Shown one piece after another: positions 19,978 to 44,954 of a stretch of DNA of 64,000 bases. Position numbers and translations under genes: made by a program. Each line of letters opens with the position of its first letter. Positions within the stretch are counted from its first letter, which is position 1. Source of the stretch: an uncultured Burkholderiales bacterium (lineage in GTDB: Bacteria > Pseudomonadota > Gammaproteobacteria > Burkholderiales > Burkholderiaceae_C); contig CAMFGY010000006.1 in assembly GCA_945952065.1 (NCBI GenBank), forward strand, positions 62,001 to 126,000, read 5' to 3'. A model generated the notes under the pieces. It made no database searches and had not been told where the DNA came from. It was given only the letters and a program-made list of their open reading frames with translations.

Positions 19978-20041
19978 AATCGGCAGTTGAATCGGCGCAA
20001 TTGCCGATTCTGTCGCCATGCATGGCATGGTTCAATACACC

Positions 20042-22138
20042 ATGGAATTTGGAGTTTTGAATCTTGCATGGTTGGGTGATTGCCTTGCGTTGGCGCTGTA
20101 TACGGCTTTCGCCCTGTATTTTGGTTACAGGGTTTGGTGGGTACGATCCTCGCCCGCCAATGGCTTGTCCTATGTTTTTGCCGCGGCGCTGATTGCCAGT
20201 GCCGCCTGGGCGGGTTTGGGCGTTGCTGCGGGCATGCGGTGGCTTGCCTCTGGCACTTTGGCCTGGATGATTCCGGCGGCAGATTTACTGCGCTACGCCT
20301 TGTGGTTCGGCTTCATATTGCTGCTGCTGCGTCCTGATCAGCAGCAGGTAAAAGCCCCGGTGGCTCCCCCCCGATTTGCGGATATGGCTTATGTGTCGCT
20401 GGGAAGCGCGCTGTTGATGCTTGTGCTTCGTGCCACCCAGTCGGAAATGGGGACCGACTTGCTCCGACCCTCGGCCTTCACGGCACTCGGACTGGCCATC
20501 GTGGGCTTGATCTTGGTCGAGCAGTTGCTCAGGAACTCAAGCTCGGACACACGTTGGAACGCCAAGCCCGTCTGCCTTGGTTTGGGCGCTTTGTTCGCCT
20601 TCGATCTGTTTGTTTTTTCGCAAGCCGCTTTGTTCCGCGAATTTGATGGCGATGCACTTAGCGTGCGTTCTCTGGCTCATTGTTCCGCGCTTCCTTTGTT
20701 GTTTTTGGCTTCCCGCCGCCGAGCCGACTGGCTTGAAAAACTCCACGTCTCGCGCGCAGCGGTGTTCCATTCGGCGACTTTGCTGCTGGTGGGTTTGTAT
20801 CTCCTCTTGGTTTCAGCCATTGGCTACTACGTTCGATACACGGGCGGGCAATGGGGCCGGGCATTGCAACTCGCCTTGGTGTTTGTTGCACTCCTTGGTT
20901 TAGCGATTCTGGTTTTGTCTGGCGCATTGCGCTCGCAACTGAAGGTCTATATCGGCAAGAATTTTTTCAGCTACCGCTACGATTACCGGGAGGAGTGGCT
21001 TCGATTCACGGCAACTCTGTCCTCGAGCGATTCGCCTCAACTGATGGGTGAAACGGTGATTCGCGCATTGGCCAATTTGGTTGAAAGCCCGTCAGGGGCT
21101 TTGTGGTTGCAGCAAGGCGAGGCAGAAGAGTTCAGTCAAACCGCACGTTGGAATTCCCCCTTCGTAGACGAGCGTGTTGCCACCGGCTCCGAGTTTTCTC
21201 AATTTCTGTTGACGCGAGCCTGGATTGTTGACGTGGACCGACTCCGCCATGGAGCCACCGAGTATGAAGGACTGCGTGCCCCGGAGTGGTTGTTGGCCGA
21301 TGCTCGCTACTGCTGGTTGGTGCCTTTGATGTTTGGGGAAAAGCTGCTCGGCTTTGTCCTCTTGGGGCAACCGAGGGCGACGCTTGAATTGGATTGGGAG
21401 GTGCGTGATTTGCTGAAGACGGCGAGTCGGCAGGCTTCCAGCTATCTGGCTCAAATGCAGGCGACAGAAGCCCTGCTGGAGTCGAAAAAATTCGACGCTT
21501 TCAATCGAATGTCGGCCTTTGTGGTCCACGATCTGAAAAACATCGTGACGCAGCTCTCATTGATGATGAAGAATGCCAAGCGTTTGAAAGATAACCCTGA
21601 ATTTCAGCAGGATATGCTCGATACTGTTGAGAATTCTCTGGAAAAGATGCGACAGCTCATGCTGCAACTGCGCGAGGGTGAAAAGCCTCATGGAGTCTCC
21701 AGCGGCGTTGACCTGGAGGCGATTGTCAAAAGGTTGGCGGCTGCTGCTTCAAGCAAGGGGCGGACACTGGCGCTGGAAATTGACTCCAAGGTCAGTACTC
21801 GCGGACATGAAGAGCGTGTGGAGCGAGTACTGGGTCATGTCGTGCAAAACGCTTTCGATGCTTCGAATCACGACGATGCTGTGGTGTTGAAGCTGGACCA
21901 ACTTGGCAGCTCGGCTCGGGTGGTGATAGCAGATCAGGGATGTGGCATGACGGATGAGTTCATTCGCCAGAAACTGTTCAGGCCCTTTCAAACAACAAAG
22001 CAGGCGGGAATGGGGATTGGTGCTTATGAAAGTTACCAGTACTTGAAAGAGCTTGGGGGAAATATCAAGGTTGAAAGCCAACCCAATATAGGTACCACCG
22101 TGACCATATTGTTGCCTCTTTTCCATGCGATGAACTGA
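20042..22138 (+). CDS. prsK: XrtA/PEP-CTERM system histidine kinase PrsK
   Basis: Multi-TM N-terminus, GAF-like region, HATPase (DQGCGMTDEFIRQKLFRPFQTTKQAGMGIGAYES); next to prsR; ORF can extend to 20018. Confidence 0.9.
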   Translation: MEFGVLNLAWLGDCLALALYTAFALYFGYRVWWVRSSPANGLSYVFAAALIASAAWAGLGVAAGMRWLASGTLAWMIPAADLLRYALWFGFILLLLRPDQQQVKAPVAPPRFADMAYVSLGSALLMLVLRATQSEMGTDLLRPSAFTALGLAIVGLILVEQLLRNSSSDTRWNAKPVCLGLGALFAFDLFVFSQAALFREFDGDALSVRSLAHCSALPLLFLASRRRADWLEKLHVSRAAVFHSATLLLVGLYLLLVSAIGYYVRYTGGQWGRALQLALVFVALLGLAILVLSGALRSQLKVYIGKNFFSYRYDYREEWLRFTATLSSSDSPQLMGETVIRALANLVESPSGALWLQQGEAEEFSQTARWNSPFVDERVATGSEFSQFLLTRAWIVDVDRLRHGATEYEGLRAPEWLLADARYCWLVPLMFGEKLLGFVLLGQPRATLELDWEVRDLLKTASRQASSYLAQMQATEALLESKKFDAFNRMSAFVVHDLKNIVTQLSLMMKNAKRLKDNPEFQQDMLDTVENSLEKMRQLMLQLREGEKPHGVSSGVDLEAIVKRLAAAASSKGRTLALEIDSKVSTRGHEERVERVLGHVVQNAFDASNHDDAVVLKLDQLGSSARVVIADQGCGMTDEFIRQKLFRPFQTTKQAGMGIGAYESYQYLKELGGNIKVESQPNIGTTVTILLPLFHAMN

Positions 22139-22147
22139 TAAATATAA

Positions 22148-23533
22148 ATGGCGATCTCAAACAATGAAAAGCCGCAGGATCAGCGGCAAATGATGCTGAT
22201 TGTTGAGGACGATCTGGCGCTTCAGAAGCAGTTGAAGTGGTCTTTGGATCGATTTGATTCCGTCCTTGCCGAAGATGTCAGCAGCGCCGTACAGCAGTTT
22301 CGCAAGCACAATCCGGTTGTGGTCACCATGGATTTAGGCCTTCCACCGGACCAAGATTCGGTCACGGAAGGTTTCAAGTGTTTGGAGAAATTGCTGGAGT
22401 TGAATCCGGCAGCAAAAGTCATTGTGCTGACCGGCCAAAATGACCATGAGAATGCCCTGCGTGCTATTCAAATGGGTGCGTATGATTTTCTGGCCAAGCC
22501 AGTGGATCCCGACTTACTCGCCTTGACGGTGGAACGGGCATTCCGTTTGTACGAGTTGCAGGAAGAGAATCAGCGCCTTTTGAACGCCAATCGTCAAGAT
22601 GCGCTGGGCGGTTTGATCACGCGAGACATGGGCATGCAAAAGATCTGCAGAACCATCGAGCGTGTTGCAAGCAGCGATTTGACGGTGTTGCTGCTGGGGG
22701 AGAGCGGCACCGGCAAAGAGGTTTTGGCGCAGGGCTTGCACACGGCCTCCAAGCGAAAGGGACGTTTTGTTGCGATCAACTGCGCGGCGATTCCGGAAAA
22801 CTTGCTCGAAAGCGAATTGTTCGGCTACGAAAAAGGGGCTTTTACAGGCGCCTCAAAGACGACTGTTGGTCGTCTGGAAGTGGCCGATGGCGGCACCTTG
22901 ATGCTCGATGAAATCGGTGATTTGCCCTTGCCATTGCAAGCAAAATTGCTTCGTTTTTTGCAGGAACGGGTGATTGAGAGAGTTGGTGGGCGGCAAGAGA
23001 TACCGGTCGACGTTCGCGTCGTTGGGGCAACGCACCGCGATCTGCAGGAGCAAATTGCTGCGGGGGGCTTCCGAGAGGATTTGTATTTCCGATTGGCTGA
23101 AATCGTGATCGATATCCCGCCATTGCGTGACCGTGTGGGTGATCCTGTGCTGCTTGCGAATGCGTTCGTCAAACAACTGGCCAGTGAGCAAAGGCGGCGT
23201 CCCCTGGGCTTCAGCCCAGACGCCTTGCGGGCGCTGGAAGCTTACAACTGGCCGGGCAATGTGCGAGAACTGCAAAATCGCATCAAGCGGGCCTTCATCA
23301 TGGCAGATGGCGAGCGATTGACCAGCAGCGATCTGGGTCTCGCTGATCCCAGCCGTGCGACTGAGGTTGACGAAGAAGTTTTGGACTTGCGTGTGGTTCG
23401 TGAACGTGCAGAGCGACAAGCCGTATTGACGGCCATGTCGCGTGCTGATGGCAATGTTGCCAAAGCGGCGGAATTGCTGGGTGTCAGTCGACCCACTTTG
23501 TATGATTTGATGAACAAATTGGAAATTAAATGA
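22148..23533 (+). CDS. prsR: PEP-CTERM-box response regulator transcription factor PrsR (NtrC-type sigma-54 activator)
   Basis: Receiver domain, Walker A GESGTGKE, sigma-54 contact motif GAFTGA, C-terminal Fis-type HTH. Confidence 0.94.
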   Translation: MAISNNEKPQDQRQMMLIVEDDLALQKQLKWSLDRFDSVLAEDVSSAVQQFRKHNPVVVTMDLGLPPDQDSVTEGFKCLEKLLELNPAAKVIVLTGQNDHENALRAIQMGAYDFLAKPVDPDLLALTVERAFRLYELQEENQRLLNANRQDALGGLITRDMGMQKICRTIERVASSDLTVLLLGESGTGKEVLAQGLHTASKRKGRFVAINCAAIPENLLESELFGYEKGAFTGASKTTVGRLEVADGGTLMLDEIGDLPLPLQAKLLRFLQERVIERVGGRQEIPVDVRVVGATHRDLQEQIAAGGFREDLYFRLAEIVIDIPPLRDRVGDPVLLANAFVKQLASEQRRRPLGFSPDALRALEAYNWPGNVRELQNRIKRAFIMADGERLTSSDLGLADPSRATEVDEEVLDLRVVRERAERQAVLTAMSRADGNVAKAAELLGVSRPTLYDLMNKLEIK

Positions 23534-26334
23534 CTCAAGGTGTATTGCGCTCCGCCAGCTCGCCATTTCCAGTGGCCAAGTTTTCGTCTCTTGTTTTGGC
23601 AATTGGCACAAGCGTGCTGCTGAGTGCTTGTTTTGGAGGGAGTGCCGGGGACCTGGTCGTTTCAGCACGCAAGCATGTGCAGGCGAACGATAAGAAAGCG
23701 GCGCTTATCGAATTGAAAAGCGCTTTGCAAAAAAGTCCGGGATTGGCTGAGGCCCGGTTTTTGTTGGGCGAGTTGCTGTTCGATAGCGGTGACTATGTGG
23801 GCGCAGTGGTCGAATTGCAAAAGGCCCAAGAACTTGGCTACGCGCCTGAGCAGGTTCTGCCACTGCTTGCAAAAGCGATGTATGCCAAAGGCCCTCCAGA
23901 AAAGGTGATTGAGCAGTTTTCCTCAGTCAAATTGAGTGAAGCTGCCGCGCAAGCTGAAATCCTGTCGATTGTGGCCGCCGCTCAATTGTCGGCTGGGCAC
24001 ACAGCTGATGCGAAGAAAAACGTGGAGGCGGCGTTGAGCGCTGACGCCAAGTCGTCAGCAGCCCAACTGGCGCAAGTCAGATTGCTGGCCAGCTCAAAAG
24101 ACTTTGAAGGCGCCTCGAAATTGCTGACGGAAGTGCTGAAGAGCCAACCCAATGACAGCGAGGCCCATCGCCTCAGAGGTGATTTGTTCTTGCTTGCGGG
24201 CCAGCGTCAGGAGGCCGCAGAAGCCTATAAGGCGGCCATCAAGTTCAATCGGCGGAATTATGGCGCTCACACCGCAATTTTGAATCTCTATTTGCAAGAA
24301 AAAGACCTGAAGGCGGCGGATAAGCAATTGGCGGAATTCAAAGCCGCGGAACCCTCGAGGCCTGATGTCAAATGGTTTGGTGCCTTGCTGGCCGTGGAAC
24401 GAGAGGATTTCAAGTCGGCTGGAGAATTGTCTCAGCAATTGTTGAAAATTGCGCCAGATAATCCTCAGGTCCTGCATCTAGGTGGCATCATTGATTTAAA
24501 GGCTGGCGCTTTTGTCCGTGCCGAAGCTAAATTGGGTCGCGCTGTACAAATGATGCCTGAGAACGTTCAGGTACGTTTGGCTTTGGCCCAAACTTACCTG
24601 AATATGGGAGATCCCGCCAAGGCTTTGAAGGCGCTTTCGCCATTATCGAATAATGGCAAGCCCAATTGGGAGGCGGCCGTGCTGATCGCCCAGGCTCATA
24701 TGATGCAAGGGGATTTGGCAAAGGCTGAAGCTTTTTATGAGATTGCTGCGAATCTCAACTCCACCGATTTCAATAGCCGAACTGCTTTGGCCTTGGCCCA
24801 ATTTGATAAAGGGCGTGCAGAGCAAGGTCTGAGTAAACTCAGTGCTTTGACATTGAGTGAATCAGGCGTAACCAGTGATCTCGCATTGATCGGCGTTTAT
24901 CTGCGCAAGAAAGATTACGATGCCGCGCTGCTTGCCGTTGAGCAAATGAAAAAAAAGCAGCCCAATTCGCCGATTGTGAGCAATTTGCGCGGGCAGATTG
25001 AGTTGCAACGGGGGCAAAACGATGCCGCAAGACAGGCTTTTGAAGCGACGCTGAAGATTGACCCGGGTTTTGTGCCCTCGGTGTTGGCTTTGGCAAGCCT
25101 GGACGAACAAAGTGGTAAAGCTGCTTTGGCGCAAACGCGGCTCGAAAAGTTTGTTGAAGCAAACCCTCAAAATGTGCGCGTCGCCATGGCCTTGAGTGTA
25201 CTGCGGGCCAAATTGGGGGCGGGCAAGGATGAACTGGTCGCTTTGCTGCAGAAAACGATCAAGAATAACGCCGCTTCGGTGGCGCCGCGCCTCGCTTTGG
25301 TTGACTTGTACTTGCAGGCCGACGAGCCTAAGCAGGCTTTGGCCAGTGCGCAGCAAGGTTTGGCTCAGATTCCTGACAATGCAGAGTTGTTGGATGCACT
25401 TGGCAAATCGCAATTCAAACTCGGCGAGTTGAATCAAGCCATATCCACCTACAACAAAATGGCGGTGCTTCAACCAGGCCAGCCAGAGCCGCATTTCCGT
25501 CTGGCGCAGATTCATTTAGAGCGGAAAGACCAAGCAGCAGCAGCCCAGAGCTTGAGAAAAGCGCTGTCCGTCAAAGGGGACTACCTGCCGGCTTTGCGGG
25601 GTTTGATTGGGCTGGAACTGGCGATGGGCAAGAAGTCAGAGGCCTTGGCGCTTGCGAAGTCGGTACAGAAGAGCCGCCCTGCCGAGTCGTTGGGTTATGC
25701 ATTTGAAGGTGATATCGCTGCAACGCAAAAAGACTGGCCCGGCGCAGCAAGGGCTTATCGCTCGGGTCTCGATCGGCAAAATTCCACCGAGCTGGCAATC
25801 AAGCTTCATAAAGCTTTGCAAGCCAGTGGTGGTGTCACCGATGCGGATAAATTTAGCCAACAGTGGATCGGCAAGTATCCAAAAGATGGTGTGTTTAGAA
25901 CCTATTTGGGTGACAGGGCCGTTCTCAAGGAAGATTGGGACTCTGCATTGCTGCACTATCAAAGCCTGTTGGCCATGAGTCCGGAAAGTCCTTCGATTCT
26001 CAACAATCTTGCCTTGATTCAAAATCGTAAGAAGAAGGGCTCGGGCTTGGATTTGGCTTTGAAAGCGACCCAGCTGGATCCGGGTAATGCATCCTACAAG
26101 GATTCATTGGCCGAGATTTACTTTGACAATGGCAATGTGGCGAAGGCAATTGAGACCCAAAGTGCGGCCTTGGCTGCGGCGCCAGATCGCCCCTGGTATC
26201 GCTTGCATTTAGCCAAGTACTATCTTGCGGCGGGGGATCGTGCGAAAGCCTCACAAGAATTGGCAAGCTTGGCGGCTTTGGGGGATAAATTCTCTGGCCA
26301 AGCAGAAGTAAAGGCGTTGCAAGCTAAATTGTAA
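23530..26334 (+). CDS. prsT: XrtA/PEP-CTERM system TPR-repeat lipoprotein PrsT
   Basis: Lipobox LLSAC, about 900 aa of TPR repeats, start overlaps prsR stop. Confidence 0.92.
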   Translation: MTQGVLRSASSPFPVAKFSSLVLAIGTSVLLSACFGGSAGDLVVSARKHVQANDKKAALIELKSALQKSPGLAEARFLLGELLFDSGDYVGAVVELQKAQELGYAPEQVLPLLAKAMYAKGPPEKVIEQFSSVKLSEAAAQAEILSIVAAAQLSAGHTADAKKNVEAALSADAKSSAAQLAQVRLLASSKDFEGASKLLTEVLKSQPNDSEAHRLRGDLFLLAGQRQEAAEAYKAAIKFNRRNYGAHTAILNLYLQEKDLKAADKQLAEFKAAEPSRPDVKWFGALLAVEREDFKSAGELSQQLLKIAPDNPQVLHLGGIIDLKAGAFVRAEAKLGRAVQMMPENVQVRLALAQTYLNMGDPAKALKALSPLSNNGKPNWEAAVLIAQAHMMQGDLAKAEAFYEIAANLNSTDFNSRTALALAQFDKGRAEQGLSKLSALTLSESGVTSDLALIGVYLRKKDYDAALLAVEQMKKKQPNSPIVSNLRGQIELQRGQNDAARQAFEATLKIDPGFVPSVLALASLDEQSGKAALAQTRLEKFVEANPQNVRVAMALSVLRAKLGAGKDELVALLQKTIKNNAASVAPRLALVDLYLQADEPKQALASAQQGLAQIPDNAELLDALGKSQFKLGELNQAISTYNKMAVLQPGQPEPHFRLAQIHLERKDQAAAAQSLRKALSVKGDYLPALRGLIGLELAMGKKSEALALAKSVQKSRPAESLGYAFEGDIAATQKDWPGAARAYRSGLDRQNSTELAIKLHKALQASGGVTDADKFSQQWIGKYPKDGVFRTYLGDRAVLKEDWDSALLHYQSLLAMSPESPSILNNLALIQNRKKKGSGLDLALKATQLDPGNASYKDSLAEIYFDNGNVAKAIETQSAALAAAPDRPWYRLHLAKYYLAAGDRAKASQELASLAALGDKFSGQAEVKALQAKL

Positions 26335-26423: not shown

Positions 26424-27722
26424 ATGAAGTCTGTACGCAGGTCGGGGCTCAAAAAGACTTTTCACCAATTGCTGCGGCGCGCACTGAGTGCTTTACCCAG
26501 TACGATTCGGTTTTCGTTCTACCGTTCAATGGTTGATTGTGATCCGGAACCGTCAAGTCGATTGGAATTGAAGATCGCGAATACCAAGTCGGAGTTGGAG
26601 GACTGTTTCCGAATCTTGCATGACGCTTATGTGGCCAGTGGTTTTATGAAGCCAGATCCATCGGGTATGCGTATCACCCCGTATCACGCTTTGCCGACCA
26701 CGACGACGCTGTGTGCAAAATATGATGGCAAAGTCGTTGGCACCATGTCAATGATTCGCGAGGGTGTATTCGGGTTTCCCTTGCAGCGTATCTTTGATCT
26801 GGAAGCTGTGCGGGCGAAGGGTGGGCAGATTGCTGAAATCTCGGCTTTGGCTGTTCATCCTGATATGCGGAAGACGGGTGGTGCAATACTATTTCCGCTG
26901 ATGAAATTTATGCATCAGTATTGCAGTGAGTTTTTTGACACCCGGCATCTGGTTATTGCGGTCAATCCAGACAAAATTGAGTTGTACGAGGCACTTCTAT
27001 TTTTCGAGCGTCTGCAGGAGATGCCTGTTGATAAGTATGATTTTGCCAATGGCGCCCCTGCGGTCGGTGCCACGCTCGATTTGTACCATGCCGCTGAACT
27101 CTTTAAAGTAGGGTATAAGGGTCGCCCGCCGCGCAAAAATATGCACAGATACTTCTTCTTGCAAGGTCTGCCCAATATTCAATTACCGCAACGACGCTAT
27201 CACACGACCAACGATCCGGTCATGACGCCGGAGTTGCTGGATCATTTCTTCAATCGCAAAAGTAAAGTCTTTGAAGAGTTGGATGATCGAAATAAAGCTT
27301 TGCTTTGGCAGATTTACAATATGGCTGAGTATCGTTCGGTGTTGCCGATGCTGGCTGGCAACCCGGTGCTCACACATCCACTGCGGCAACACCAGCGGTA
27401 TTCGATTCGCTGCCCTGGCGTTGTGAAATTGAAAACCAGTGAGTCCGAGTTGGAGCGGGCCTTTGTTTTACACGTGATTGAGGTGTCGCTGGGTGGTTTC
27501 CAGGCCGAATGCAAATTAGAAATTCCGGTCAATGCCAGCGGTTACGCCGAAATTGATCTGGGGCGTTCCGAGAGGTCGATTGTGGCGGTGAAGGTGGTTC
27601 GCCGTAAGGACGTTGACGGCAATCTGTTTTACGGTTTCAAATTGGATGAGCCGGATCCCTGCTGGCGTGATTGCGTTGCAGCCCTCGAGGTGGGGGTCAC
27701 TTCTGGGGATTTATTGCATTGA
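26424..27722 (+). CDS. PEP-CTERM/exosortase-associated N-acyltransferase (FeeM-like N-acyl amino acid synthase) with C-terminal PilZ-like domain
   Basis: FeeM/autoinducer-synthase-like GNAT core (residues about 45-270); C-terminus with RxxxR (RQHQR, 321-325) and ExSxxG (EVSLGG, 353-358). Confidence 0.8.
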   Translation: MKSVRRSGLKKTFHQLLRRALSALPSTIRFSFYRSMVDCDPEPSSRLELKIANTKSELEDCFRILHDAYVASGFMKPDPSGMRITPYHALPTTTTLCAKYDGKVVGTMSMIREGVFGFPLQRIFDLEAVRAKGGQIAEISALAVHPDMRKTGGAILFPLMKFMHQYCSEFFDTRHLVIAVNPDKIELYEALLFFERLQEMPVDKYDFANGAPAVGATLDLYHAAELFKVGYKGRPPRKNMHRYFFLQGLPNIQLPQRRYHTTNDPVMTPELLDHFFNRKSKVFEELDDRNKALLWQIYNMAEYRSVLPMLAGNPVLTHPLRQHQRYSIRCPGVVKLKTSESELERAFVLHVIEVSLGGFQAECKLEIPVNASGYAEIDLGRSERSIVAVKVVRRKDVDGNLFYGFKLDEPDPCWRDCVAALEVGVTSGDLLH

Positions 27723-27784: not shown

Positions 27785-28540
27785 ATGCGCAGGGTTTTTT
27801 TCGCTCTCTGCGCTTGCGTTTGCGTGTCTGCGAGTCGTGCAGATCTGCCTGCGACCATTGCCAAATTGAAACCATCGGTAGTCCTGGTTGGGATTTTTGG
27901 TGCGACAGACAATCCTCGATTTACCTTCAGGGGTACAGGGTTTGCGGTGTCATCTGGGCTTGAGCTCGTGACCAATGCACATGTCTTGCCGGAGACTTTA
28001 CCCACTGGCCCGGAACGCCAGTTGGCGGTGATGACTTGGTCGGGGGCGGGGCAGTGGCTGCATCGCAAGGCCAGTTTGCTCGCACTAGATCGGGCAAGCG
28101 ATCTGGCTTTGTTGCGCATGGAGGGGCCGCCCATCCCGCCCTTGAAAATTTCAGAGGCTCCTGCGCAAGAAGGACAGAGCGTTGCATTCATGGGTTTTCC
28201 AATTGGTGGCGCTTTGGGGTATTCCCATGTCACCCATCGAGGCTTGATTTCTTCAATTGCCGCCTTGGTGCTGCCGCCGCCGACCTCTCAGTTTTTGACC
28301 GAAAAATCCGTGGCTCAGTTGCGACGCGGCAATTTTCAAATCTATCAGCTCGATGCGACGGCTTATCCCGGCAACAGCGGGGGGCCGGTGTTTGACCCTG
28401 AAACCGGCGAATTGCTCGCCGTGATCAACAGCGTTTTGATCAAGGGCGCACGTGAAACGGCCCTGACACACCCGAGTGGCATCAGTTATGCCATTCCTGC
28501 TGCACAAGTGTCCGCCCTGTTGCAAGACAACAAGCGCTGA
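27785..28540 (+). CDS. trypsin-like (S1C) secreted serine protease
   Basis: Signal peptide MRRVFFALCACVCVSASRA; catalytic motifs NAHV (His), ASDLALLRM (Asp), GNSGGPVFD (Ser). Confidence 0.88.
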   Translation: MRRVFFALCACVCVSASRADLPATIAKLKPSVVLVGIFGATDNPRFTFRGTGFAVSSGLELVTNAHVLPETLPTGPERQLAVMTWSGAGQWLHRKASLLALDRASDLALLRMEGPPIPPLKISEAPAQEGQSVAFMGFPIGGALGYSHVTHRGLISSIAALVLPPPTSQFLTEKSVAQLRRGNFQIYQLDATAYPGNSGGPVFDPETGELLAVINSVLIKGARETALTHPSGISYAIPAAQVSALLQDNKR

Positions 28541-29859: not shown

Positions 29860-29876
29860 TGGCACGGCAACTGCTT
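29860..29876 (+). promoter_or_regulatory. sigma-54 (-24/-12) promoter
   Basis: TGGCACG-GCAA-CTGCT: GG and GC dinucleotides separated by exactly 10 nt; about 73 nt upstream of the PEP-CTERM gene ATG. Confidence 0.82.
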
Positions 29877-31704: not shown

Positions 31705-32832
31705 TCAAGCCTTTTCGCGGGGGGCTGAAGCCGAACCTGGGCTGGTGATCAACAGTTCTTCTAATGGGCGGCGCAAAGACCGGGCGACTGCTGCCGGCCC
31801 ATGGCCGATTCGGCCCATGAAAACGGCTTGGTCGCAGTTTTCTGCCCCCATCAGTTCTTGCATGGCGCGATGAATCTTTTGAGCCGAAGGCATGGCGAAG
31901 CTCTCGCGGCTGAAGTCGCGCCTTTCTCGGGCGTAGCGGGAGAACACCAGTGGTGTGATTTCGGGTTGCATGCACAGGCCCAGCTGCGTGACCGTGAGCC
32001 AAAGCCTTTGCATGGCGCGACCCGCTGCAATGTAGTCGTCCATGGTTGTCGGTGTTTGCCGGGCGACCATCAAAAAATGGGCGGCGCAGGCAATACCGGG
32101 GAGCAGGTCCAACTGCAATCGAGGCGCCCAGGTTCCAGCTAAAAAGCGATTGAGAAAGTGCACCCGCTCCCAGCTGTGCATGGCGAAGCGCATCACGCGC
32201 GTGGTCATGGGGTCGGAGCCCAGCGCTTGGTCAGGGATTTTGTCGATGCTGAACTGGGCGTTCCATTCAATCACACTGCGGTGAACTTCGAAGGCTTCTG
32301 GCAAGGTCAGGCGCAGCTTGGCCGACTTGAACAAAAGCAGGGCGGTGGCCAGCTTTTCTTGGAACCCTTGCTTCCATACCAAGCTGTAATTGGGGCCAAT
32401 GGCTTGGGCCAGTGCTTGTAAATGCTCGGCATTCAGTGGCCGGGTGCTCATGGCTCGGCGCTGTACCGCGCGTGTTTCGATGCTGGCAAGCAAGGGATCG
32501 AGTTGGACGTTTGCGCTGGCCTCGAATTCCAGCTCAAAAACAGGACGATGCTCGGGTGAATCCGGCCGTCGATGGGTCAATAGACGCCAGCCAAACTGGC
32601 TGGCAGCGATCGCGAGGGTTTCCAGCAGGGCGCCCATGGCGATTTGGCTGGGATGTCCGTCCAGGTCATAAACGCAATGATCACGGGTGTCAAAGCCGTG
32701 CACCAATGCTTGTGTCGGGGAGCGTATTTCAAAGCGCCAAGGTTGCGTGTTGTCGCCGCTGGGTGCCCAGCGTCCCAAGTCCAGAATGCGGCGGAGCTTT
32801 TCGTCTGAAATCATGGTGCGGTGGCCTGTCAT
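31705..32832 (-). CDS. nitroreductase family protein
   Basis: N-terminal RRILDLGRWAPSGDNTQPWRFEI is a nitroreductase-fold signature. Confidence 0.82.
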   Translation of the reverse strand: MTGHRTMISDEKLRRILDLGRWAPSGDNTQPWRFEIRSPTQALVHGFDTRDHCVYDLDGHPSQIAMGALLETLAIAASQFGWRLLTHRRPDSPEHRPVFELEFEASANVQLDPLLASIETRAVQRRAMSTRPLNAEHLQALAQAIGPNYSLVWKQGFQEKLATALLLFKSAKLRLTLPEAFEVHRSVIEWNAQFSIDKIPDQALGSDPMTTRVMRFAMHSWERVHFLNRFLAGTWAPRLQLDLLPGIACAAHFLMVARQTPTTMDDYIAAGRAMQRLWLTVTQLGLCMQPEITPLVFSRYARERRDFSRESFAMPSAQKIHRAMQELMGAENCDQAVFMGRIGHGPAAVARSLRRPLEELLITSPGSASAPREKA

Positions 32833-32961: not shown

Positions 32962-33828
32962 TTGGAAACAAACCTAGTTTTCGACTACGACCGCGCGTTC
33001 TCAAGAAATATTGGATGGGTCACTCGCAAAGAACAGGAGCTCTTGCGCGGTTCAAGGATTGCGATCGCCGGTCTTGGCGGTGTAGGAGGGGCTCATCTCT
33101 TGACCTTGGCGCGCTTGGGTGTCGGGGCCTTCAATATTGCGGACTTTGACCAGTTTGAAGTGCACAACTTCAATCGGCAGGTTGGCGCTTTGATGTCGAC
33201 CCTGGGGCGACCCAAGGCGGAGGTGCTTCATGAGCAGGTGCTGGACATCAACCCTGAGGCCAAGGTTCGCCGGTGGGATGAAGGGGTCGTCGCGGCGAAC
33301 TTGGATGAATTCTTGCGAGATGTGGATGTCTATGTCGACAGCTTGGATTTCTTTGCGATTGAGGCGAGGCGGATGCTCTTCAAGGCTTGCTATGAGCGAG
33401 GCATTCCGGCGCTGACCGCCGCGCCTTTGGGCATGGGCGTTGCATTGCTGTATTTCAAACCCGGGAGCATGAGTTTTGAAGACTATTTCAAAGTTGAAGG
33501 CTGCCAGGAGAACGAGAAGTACGCTAGGTTCATTGCTGGCTTGTCCCCCGCCATGCTGCAACGCGGCTATTTGGCGGATATGGAGGCCGTGAACTTCAAG
33601 GAAAAGCGCGGCCCCTCGACGATGATGGCCTGTGATCTGTGCGCCGGGGTGATGGCGACCTCGGTGCTGAAGGTGTTGTTAGGCCGCGGCCCCCTGAAAG
33701 CTGCGCCTTGGGCCATGCAGTTTGATGCGTACAAGCAAAAGCTCAGTTTTACTTGGCGCCCATTTGGGAATTCGAACCCGCTGCAGAAGCTGCTGTTGAT
33801 GCTCATCCGCCCATTGTTGAAGGGCTAG
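32962..33828 (+). CDS. ThiF/E1-like adenylyltransferase family protein
   Basis: IAGLGGVGGAHLLTLARLGVGAFNIADFDQFEVHNFNRQ nucleotide-binding motif and CDLC; start uncertain (TTG 32962 behind GGAGG, or GTG 32956). Confidence 0.85.
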   Translation: METNLVFDYDRAFSRNIGWVTRKEQELLRGSRIAIAGLGGVGGAHLLTLARLGVGAFNIADFDQFEVHNFNRQVGALMSTLGRPKAEVLHEQVLDINPEAKVRRWDEGVVAANLDEFLRDVDVYVDSLDFFAIEARRMLFKACYERGIPALTAAPLGMGVALLYFKPGSMSFEDYFKVEGCQENEKYARFIAGLSPAMLQRGYLADMEAVNFKEKRGPSTMMACDLCAGVMATSVLKVLLGRGPLKAAPWAMQFDAYKQKLSFTWRPFGNSNPLQKLLLMLIRPLLKG

Positions 33829-42141: not shown

Positions 42142-43359
42142 GTGGCCAATATTCTCTATTTGGTACATCGTCTGCCTTACCCGCCCAACAAAGGCGACAA
42201 GGTCAGGTCGTTCCATTTGCTCAAGCATCTTGCGGCCCGGCATCGGGTCTTCTTGGGGACGTTTGTCGATGACCCTGAAGACCTTCAATACCTGGATACC
42301 GTTCGCCGCTACTGCGCCGATATGCATGTGGTGAAAATCGACCCACGACGGTCCAAGTTGGCGTCGCTGCGGGGCTTGCTCTCAGGTGAAGCACTGAGTT
42401 TGCCGTTTTATCGCGATGCAAGCATGCAGGCTTGGGTGAACAAGCTGGTGCAGACTGAAAATTTGTCTGCCTCGGTGGTGTTTTCTTCGCCCGTGGCTCA
42501 GTACGCGATGCAATGTCCCCAAGTGCCCATGTTGGTGGACTTTGTCGATCTGGATTCGGCCAAATGGACGGACTATGCGCCCAACCATGTCTGGCCGCTG
42601 TCTTGGCTTTACCGCCGCGAAGGCCGCACCCTGCTGGCCTTTGAGCAAGAGGTGGCGGCGAAGGCGCGTGCATCTTTTTTTGTGACCGACAAAGAAGTGG
42701 CTTTGTTTCACGCGCGCTCACCAGGTCTTCAGGCCAAGGTGCATGCCTTGTGCAATGGCGTGGACGCCGAGTTCTTCTCGCCAGAGGCGGGTCGCACTTC
42801 GCCATTCCCAGCGCAGCAAATGCCGCTTGTTTTCACTGGCGCCATGGACTATTGGCCCAATATCGATGCCGTGACCTGGTTCGTCCAAGACATCTTGCCT
42901 GAGTTGCGTAAGCAATGGCCAAGCCTTCATTTCTATATCGTCGGTCGCAGCCCAACAGCGGCTGTACAGGCGTTGGCCGGCGAGGGCGTGACGGTCACCG
43001 GCACGGTGCCCGATGTTCGGCCCTATCTCCAACATGCCGCGGTGGTGGTGGCGCCCTTGCGCTTGGCGCGTGGTATTCAAAACAAGATTCTTGAAGCGAT
43101 GGCCATGGGCCGGCCGGTCGTTGCAGCGAGCAGTTGCGTGCAAGCCATTGACGCCAAAGTCGGGCAGGACTTGCTGCAAGCCCAGGCGAGCGAAGACTAT
43201 GTGCGTGAAGTGAGTGCCTTGTTGGCCTCGGTTGAGCGGGCAGAGCAAATCGGGGCGGCGGGTCGCGCCTGCGTTTTGGCCAATTACAGCTGGGATGCCC
43301 ACTTGGCGGGGATCGATCAGTACTTGGCCGAAATCCCGGCGAGCGAGGTATCGCCATGA
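42142..43359 (+). CDS. TIGR03087-like XrtA/PEP-CTERM system glycosyltransferase
   Basis: HRLPYPPNKGDKVRSFHLLKHL and GT-B C-terminal domain; GTG start. Confidence 0.92.
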   Translation: MANILYLVHRLPYPPNKGDKVRSFHLLKHLAARHRVFLGTFVDDPEDLQYLDTVRRYCADMHVVKIDPRRSKLASLRGLLSGEALSLPFYRDASMQAWVNKLVQTENLSASVVFSSPVAQYAMQCPQVPMLVDFVDLDSAKWTDYAPNHVWPLSWLYRREGRTLLAFEQEVAAKARASFFVTDKEVALFHARSPGLQAKVHALCNGVDAEFFSPEAGRTSPFPAQQMPLVFTGAMDYWPNIDAVTWFVQDILPELRKQWPSLHFYIVGRSPTAAVQALAGEGVTVTGTVPDVRPYLQHAAVVVAPLRLARGIQNKILEAMAMGRPVVAASSCVQAIDAKVGQDLLQAQASEDYVREVSALLASVERAEQIGAAGRACVLANYSWDAHLAGIDQYLAEIPASEVSP

Positions 43360-44954
43360 GAGGCTGGACGTCTTTGTCACCGGCATGGCGCCAAGCGCTG
43401 CCTGCGTTGGCATTTGCTCTGTTGGCCGTTTTGCTGCTTTATCGCGAAACCGCCGTGGCCATGGTGATGATTTGGCATCGGTCCGAAACCTATGCCCACG
43501 CATTTGTGGTTCCGCCCATTGCCATGTGGTTGATATGGCGAAAGCGAGACCTGCTCTTCGCTTTGAGCCCCAAACCTTCACTGTGGTTTGCCGCCCCTGT
43601 GCTGGGCTTTGTCGCGCTTTGGTTTTTGGGTGAACTGGTGTCGGCCAACTCGATCACGCAGTTGGCTCTGGTGGGCATGCTTGTTTTTGTGGTGCCCACG
43701 GTGCTGGGTTGGCCGCTCGCGCGTGTCATTGCTTTTCCATTGGGCTTCTTGTTCTTTGCTGTGCCCATTGGCGAATTCATGACGCCATACTTGATGGAGT
43801 GGACGGCAGATTTCACGGTGACGGCCTTGCGAATCAGCGGAATTCCGGTGTATCGCGAAGGGCAGGACTTTGTGATACCGAGCGGCAACTGGTCTGTGGT
43901 GGAGGCCTGCAGCGGTATTCGCTATTTGATGGCCTCGGTCATGGTGGGCACCTTGTTTGCCTACCTGAACTTCCACTCTTTGAAAAAGCGCTGGGTCTTT
44001 GTTGCTGTTTCTTTTTTGTTGCCCGTGTTGGCGAACTGGTTTCGCGCCTACTTCATCGTGATGTTGGGCCATTACTCGGGCAATAAGCTGGCGGTTGGGG
44101 CTGACCACTTGGTCTACGGTTGGGTCTTCTTCGGCATCATCATGCTGGCCATGTTCATGGTTGGTGCGCGGTGGAGCGATCCTGAACCCGAGAGTGAAGC
44201 GATTGTCCGCACACCGGCCGCTGAGTCCTTGCCTCTGCTTGCGCAGGCCTGGCCCATCTTGGCTCTTTTGAGTTTGCTGGGCTTGGCCCCTGTCGCTTTG
44301 CAGCAATTGGATGCGCGCAATGGCAAAGCACCTGTTCAGCTGAGCCTGCCTGATCTGGCTCGGCAGGGCTGGGAACTCGAATCCGCGGTGAATCCCCCTT
44401 GGCTGCCTAGCTACTCGAATGCATCGGCCGATTTGCAAGCCAGCTGGCGCAAGATTGGTGCGGATGGAAAGCCACGCCAAGTCGCGCTTTACGTGGCCTA
44501 CTACCGCGACCAGAGTTATTCAAGCAAGTTGATCAGTTCGAACAATGAATTGACGCGCTCACAAGACCGAGACTGGGTTTCGGTCAAGCAAGGTCGTGGC
44601 GAATTGGCGCTTCAAGAGATGACCTTGCCTCTGCGCTGGGCCGAACTGCGAGGACATGGTCCTGTGTTGGGCTCGGCGGACCTCGGCTTCGAACCCCGAC
44701 TGACCGTGAAGTATCTGTTTTGGGTCGATGGTCAGTTGACGAGCAGTGATGCCAAAGCCAAGTTGTATGGCGCATTCAAGCAGCTGAAGGGCCGCGGTGA
44801 CGACGCTGCAGCGGTTTTTGTGTCTGCTGTGCAAGCCCAGGAGGGCGAGACCGAGGCGATCTTGGATGAATTCTTACGCGATAACTGGGCTGATTTGGCA
44901 AAGATGCTGAGCGAGGCACGCGAATCAGCGCATAACGGGCTTGCTGCTCGGTGA
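43356..44954 (+). CDS. xrtA: exosortase A with fused EpsI domain
   Basis: Exosortase motifs: VVEACSGIRYL (Cys), ANWFRAYFIVMLGHYSG (Arg), VGADHLVYGWVFF (His); about 220 aa EpsI-like C-terminal domain. Confidence 0.95.
   Translation: MRGWTSLSPAWRQALPALAFALLAVLLLYRETAVAMVMIWHRSETYAHAFVVPPIAMWLIWRKRDLLFALSPKPSLWFAAPVLGFVALWFLGELVSANSITQLALVGMLVFVVPTVLGWPLARVIAFPLGFLFFAVPIGEFMTPYLMEWTADFTVTALRISGIPVYREGQDFVIPSGNWSVVEACSGIRYLMASVMVGTLFAYLNFHSLKKRWVFVAVSFLLPVLANWFRAYFIVMLGHYSGNKLAVGADHLVYGWVFFGIIMLAMFMVGARWSDPEPESEAIVRTPAAESLPLLAQAWPILALLSLLGLAPVALQQLDARNGKAPVQLSLPDLARQGWELESAVNPPWLPSYSNASADLQASWRKIGADGKPRQVALYVAYYRDQSYSSKLISSNNELTRSQDRDWVSVKQGRGELALQEMTLPLRWAELRGHGPVLGSADLGFEPRLTVKYLFWVDGQLTSSDAKAKLYGAFKQLKGRGDDAAAVFVSAVQAQEGETEAILDEFLRDNWADLAKMLSEARESAHNGLAAR

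Follow-up and report, generated by a model that had tools for sequence, protein, structure and literature searches.

Is production of an acyl amino acid (or oxazolone) lipid switched on by a biofilm second messenger, alongside the exopolysaccharide and PEP-CTERM machinery? The question is posed by one gene in a 64,000-nucleotide stretch of DNA (hereafter the window) from an uncultured Burkholderiales bacterium. In this gene, a FeeM-type N-acyl amino acid synthase (NAS) and a PilZ domain occupy a single open reading frame, as the original prediction from the sequence had claimed, and profile, structure and conservation evidence backed that claim. The gene and its parts are located as follows.

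26424..27722, + strand: FeeM-PilZ fusion gene, an intact open reading frame of 432 amino acids
26601..27080, + strand: FeeM N-acyl amino acid synthase domain, residues 60-219, with 2G0B as the top structural match
26835..26837, + strand: putative catalytic Glu138
27111..27362, + strand: conserved helical linker, residues about 230-313, from alignment and model
27381..27659, + strand: PilZ domain (PF07238), residues 320-412, with a fold match to PilZ structures
27384..27398, + strand: RxxxR motif containing R321 and R325
27480..27497, + strand: ExSxxG motif (Glu variant of [DN]xSxxG), residues 353-358

The reading frame is a real gene, since at least 80 genomes hold homologues of essentially the whole length (56-93% identity). 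The protein scored 153.5 bits against the Pfam FeeM profile PF21926 (cut-off 27, E 5.1e-45, residues 60-219), and the solved FeeM structure (2G0B) was its only meaningful PDB match by sequence. In the full-length AlphaFold2 model (alignment of 20 homologues, mean pLDDT 81.5), FeeM chains ranked first (E 4e-10, TM-score to target about 0.8), followed by other GNAT enzymes and BjaI; the PilZ domain of BcsA was also among the matches. The assignment of the N-terminal part to FeeM stood, but the extent first given to it, about 270 residues, did not: the catalytic core ends near residue 220 and is followed by the linker. By its profile score the protein falls outside TIGR03694, the PEP-CTERM/exosortase system-associated acyltransferases (14.2 bits against a curated cut-off of 111.95), although the gene sits in an exosortase locus, and membership was rejected.

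Sequence alignment matched Glu138 with the FeeM glutamate in 'AEVVQFA', and the residue was invariant in 81 of 81 homologues. Its equivalent in the synthase Nas354, E103, is needed for activity, which is abolished in E103A, and Nas354 produces N-acyltyrosine in E. coli (PMC4897644). By analogy with Nas354 and other homologues, tyrosine is most likely the amino acid substrate of the fusion. The source genome carries further FeeM-type genes (loci L002 and L003, on contigs C10 and C15); one encodes 231 aa without a PilZ domain, and the other encodes 560 aa, in which a FeeM-like part is joined to an apparent aminotransferase-type domain.

The two-part PilZ signature had been placed at RQHQR (residues 321-325) and EVSLGG (residues 353-358), and both positions were confirmed. 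Profile PF07238 scored 27.1 bits over residues 320-412 (curated cut-off 22.5), and the PilZ segment was recognised in 26 of 30 homologues of the fusion. The motif alone is modest evidence only, because shuffling the C-terminal 163 residues produced the bare pattern (R-x3-R, 20-35 residues, [DNE]xSxxG) in 0.7% of cases. When the PilZ segment was run as a profile against PDB sequences it gave no match, and therefore fold comparison was used. A separate AlphaFold model of residues 306-432 (alignment of 30 homologues, pLDDT 84) consisted of six strands and a C-terminal helix, and nearly all of its best 45 PDB matches were PilZ domains, among them BcsA (cellulose synthase), YcgR, Alg44, MapZ, PA0012, MotI/DgrA, PP4397, VCA0042, MrkH and PA4608. 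Many of the matched structures were solved with c-di-GMP. The PilZ beta-barrel on which the original prediction had staked itself was thus recovered, with low model confidence at the R321 end of RxxxR (pLDDT below 50 for residues 313-323).

Across the 81 full-length homologues, R321, R325 and S355 were invariant and G358 was kept in 80, and the canonical D/N position of the second motif was occupied by Glu (75), Asp (4) or Gln (2). The 30-segment PilZ alignment had a mean column identity of 51%. Of its 123 columns 12 were invariant, and these included the R, R, S and G (hypergeometric P 5e-5, relatedness not taken into account). The Pfam score together with residue conservation and the fold match settles the PilZ assignment, and on these grounds a chance motif was rejected. 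The conserved residues speak for a c-di-GMP site that has been kept, with a Glu typical of the family; the domain very probably senses c-di-GMP and likely controls the synthase. A literature search found no report of an ExSxxG PilZ variant. As the genome holds 59 GGDEF matches and three PilZ domains besides that of the fusion, c-di-GMP signalling very probably exists in the source cell.

A plasmid search with the fusion protein returned distant relatives only. One of these, a full-length homologue on plasmid pBdHAGR2 of Bdellovibrio sp. HAGR004 (L116:255-1502; 37.5% over residues 15-422), keeps the Arg-rich start of the PilZ segment, carries NVARKG at the position of the second motif and is not matched by the PilZ profile. 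Loss of the motif serine in this homologue, together with Glu for Asp/Asn in most members, is what would be expected if the PilZ domain were a structural relic with its c-di-GMP binding lost. A relic would drift, however, and the invariance of both Arg and Ser and near-invariance of Gly, in segments otherwise at 51% column identity, make this explanation very doubtful.

The window is an XrtA/PEP-CTERM exopolysaccharide locus, and synteny bore out the exosortase setting proposed for the FeeM-type gene. The gene order is epsB (TIGR03013), prsK, prsR, prsT, the fusion, a Trypsin_2 protease, a GT4 glycosyltransferase, a PEP-CTERM protein, a DMT-family transporter, a nitroreductase-family gene, a ThiF-family gene, an export protein, a chain-length protein, TIGR03016, an ATPase, XrtA and an amidotransferase. 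The genes that matter most here are listed below.

20018-22138, + strand: prsK, upstream of the fusion, TIGR02916 above cut-off
22148-23533, + strand: prsR, upstream of the fusion, TIGR02915 above cut-off
23530-26334, + strand: prsT, immediately upstream of the fusion, TIGR02917 above cut-off
27785..28540, + strand: trypsin-like (Trypsin_2) protease gene adjoining the fusion gene, PF13365, signal peptide likely
31759..32832, - strand: nitroreductase-family gene, candidate TyzC-like oxidase (optional), PF00881, with NF047509 and Rv1355c-family models below their cut-offs
32962..33828, + strand: ThiF-family gene, candidate TyzB-like cyclase (optional), PF00899, with PRK08223 at 449 bits, above cut-off
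43356..44954, + strand: exosortase A (XrtA) gene, TIGR03109 343 bits, cut-off 208

Genes of the XrtA locus (EpsB, PrsK, PrsR, PrsT, EpsX or the chain-length gene) lay near the fusion in 71 of the best 80 loci. XrtA was present in 18 of 20 fusion carriers versus 6 of 41 non-carriers (Fisher P 1.5e-8, with one genus making up most carriers). Gene order and co-occurrence mark the fusion as a conserved XrtA-locus component. The trypsin-like protease was found less than 1.5 kb from the fusion gene in 53 of the best 80 loci, sometimes on the opposite strand, and no reported link between such a protease and FeeM-PilZ was found in the literature. A scan of the window for sigma-54 promoters gave none directly before the fusion gene; a good site precedes the PEP-CTERM gene instead. 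This site, TGGCACggcaaCTGCTT at 29860-29876 (+), lies 73 bp before the ATG (29949) of the PEP-CTERM protein gene, is the sole mismatch-free RpoN-type site within the window and matches exactly, in its -24/-12 motifs, the RpoN promoter mapped for Aquincola tertiaricarbonis pepA (PMC9850573).

Taken as a whole, the evidence is best explained by an XrtA-locus N-acyl amino acid synthase that is switched by its own PilZ c-di-GMP domain, a reading to which we give a probability of about 0.6. The FeeM domain would move a long-chain acyl group, probably from acyl-ACP, onto the amino group of an amino acid, most likely tyrosine. The PilZ domain would bind c-di-GMP via R321, R325, S355 and G358 and, once bound, would switch the enzyme through the conserved helical linker, and the N-acyl amino acid would be made at high c-di-GMP, while the XrtA exopolysaccharide/PEP-CTERM machinery runs. 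Against this explanation stand the replacement of the usual Asp/Asn by Glu in the second motif of 75 of the 81 homologues, and the low model confidence at the R321 end of the first motif.

Alternatively, the PilZ domain may bind c-di-GMP but mainly govern partner binding or localisation, for example docking to the exopolysaccharide/PrsT machinery, with the catalytic rate unchanged. YcgR and MapZ, both among the best structural matches, act through protein partners, and the tight synteny of the fusion with exopolysaccharide and PrsT genes also speaks for such a role. The activity of heterologous Nas354 without its native partners is in keeping with it as well (PMC4897644). Nevertheless, the covalent joining of PilZ to the enzyme by a conserved linker favours direct coupling, and NasP, another NAS, is activated by the cyclic nucleotide cAMP and provides a precedent for direct activation (PMC4897644); we consider a purely partner-directed role rather unlikely. 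As regards the favoured c-di-GMP switch, Nas354 was active in E. coli without c-di-GMP manipulation (PMC4897644), so activity may not depend strictly on the nucleotide.

The ThiF and nitroreductase genes, which lie 4-6 kb from the fusion on opposite strands, suggest a further step. In this strain FeeM-PilZ may make N-acyltyrosine, which the nitroreductase desaturates and ThiF cyclises, giving an acyl-oxazolone/dehydro-acyl amino acid pathway. We put this forward tentatively, as less likely than not; it adds to the c-di-GMP-switched synthase and does not exclude it. Relatives of both enzymes in TyzABC and OxzAB cyclise and desaturate N-acyltyrosine to acyl-oxazolones (PMC10404671), and the NAS genes of dehydrotyrosine lipid producers are clustered with ThiF and nitroreductase genes (PMC12479983). 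Besides the sharing of one locus here, another locus (L100) has nitroreductase, ThiF, FeeM-PilZ and EpsX in a row. On plasmid pDV of Nitratidesulfovibrio vulgaris, a single 989-aa protein (L115:4923-7892) consists of FeeM, ThiF and nitroreductase and, within a plasmid-borne XrtA/PEP-CTERM locus, adjoins an XrtA-type glycosyltransferase (epsB), a TPR protein and PEP-CTERM proteins, which supports a functional link of the three activities in exosortase loci.

The ThiF part of the pDV protein is 46% identical to the ThiF of the window, but its FeeM and nitroreductase parts are distant, the nitroreductase likeness being weak (22%, E 7e-9). Two genomes (G008 and G010) have ThiF near XrtA with FeeM-PilZ on another contig or 130 kb off. 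Among 19 same-genus genomes, ThiF was found in 7 and the nitroreductase in 6, versus 18 with FeeM-PilZ, and because of these counts oxazolone formation would be at most an accessory branch. An obligate three-enzyme oxazolone operon as the general role was rejected, as most relatives lack ThiF and the nitroreductase. In other families of the order (L026/G050 and L028/G052), shorter FeeM genes (about 280-320 aa) stand directly beside ThiF with a nitroreductase gene near the pair, and in L028 EPS export genes adjoin too. Mycobacterial trzAS oxazolone genes adjoin c-di-GMP turnover genes (PMC12856293), which is a suggestive parallel only.

The closest named relative of the fusion, at 93% identity, is from Paucibacter sp. 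Y2R2-4, which places the window in the Roseateles/Paucibacter group. Named homologues (56-93% identity) came from Roseateles, Paucibacter, Pelomonas, Mitsuaria, Aquabacterium, Rhodoferax and Azohydromonas, together with MAGs labelled Azonexus and Dechloromonas, and many carriers are freshwater and soil bacteria. Within the 61 genomes examined, 18 of the 19 from the same genus carried the fusion, and it also occurred in two further genera of the family; in an even sample of 400 genomes from the whole order it occurred in only 6.

The novelty that had been implied for the PilZ fusion did not hold up. Nas343 and Nas354, metagenomic N-acyltyrosine synthases, have the same NAS and PilZ organisation with a NAS domain shown by experiment to be active, and c-di-GMP regulation was proposed for them (Thies et al. 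2016, PMC4897644); a novel FeeM-PilZ architecture was therefore rejected. An earlier publication had likewise linked NAS genes to exosortases (Craig et al. 2011, cited in PMC7293339 and PMC4897644). The present analysis adds that across many Burkholderiales the PilZ form belongs to the XrtA locus as a conserved component with its ligand residues retained, along with the characteristic Glu, the protease neighbour and the optional oxazolone-type gene pair at the fusion locus. Our partial coverage of the literature yielded no prior statement of these points. As the enzyme itself carries a conserved, predicted c-di-GMP sensor and occurs in culturable bacteria (Roseateles/Paucibacter, Rhodoferax and relatives), the role of exosortase-linked NAS becomes testable with one gene, and the fusion family offers a family-wide natural test of the Glu-variant PilZ motif.

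Compared with known systems, the fusion is closest to Nas343 and Nas354. By published residue offsets, all have an N-terminal FeeM-type NAS, a linker of about 78 residues and a C-terminal PilZ domain; E103 of Nas354 corresponds to E138, and its PilZ region 279-394 to about 314-429, a similar shift of about 35 residues. The fusion has about 35 extra N-terminal residues. These collinear offsets (PMC4897644) indicate the same architecture. The genomic settings differ, as the fusion lies in an XrtA locus whereas nas343 and nas354 were thought by their authors to lie outside a biosynthetic operon (PMC4897644). FeeM has in common with the fusion a GNAT-fold catalytic domain with a conserved Glu, but at about 200 aa it has neither the linker nor the PilZ domain. 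TyzABC of M. tuberculosis and OxzAB of P. rubra combine an N-acyltransferase, a ThiF-family cyclase and a nitroreductase-family oxidase in one locus, as here; their descriptions (PMC10404671, PMC12856293) mention neither a PilZ domain nor an exosortase link, and, unlike in those systems, ThiF and nitroreductase are optional in the genus of the window. Finally, BcsA and Alg44, which are among the best structural matches, attach a PilZ domain with RxxxR and xSxxG to a biosynthetic protein, as the fusion does, whereas the enzyme is a different one and, in the second motif of the fusion, Glu takes the place of Asp/Asn.
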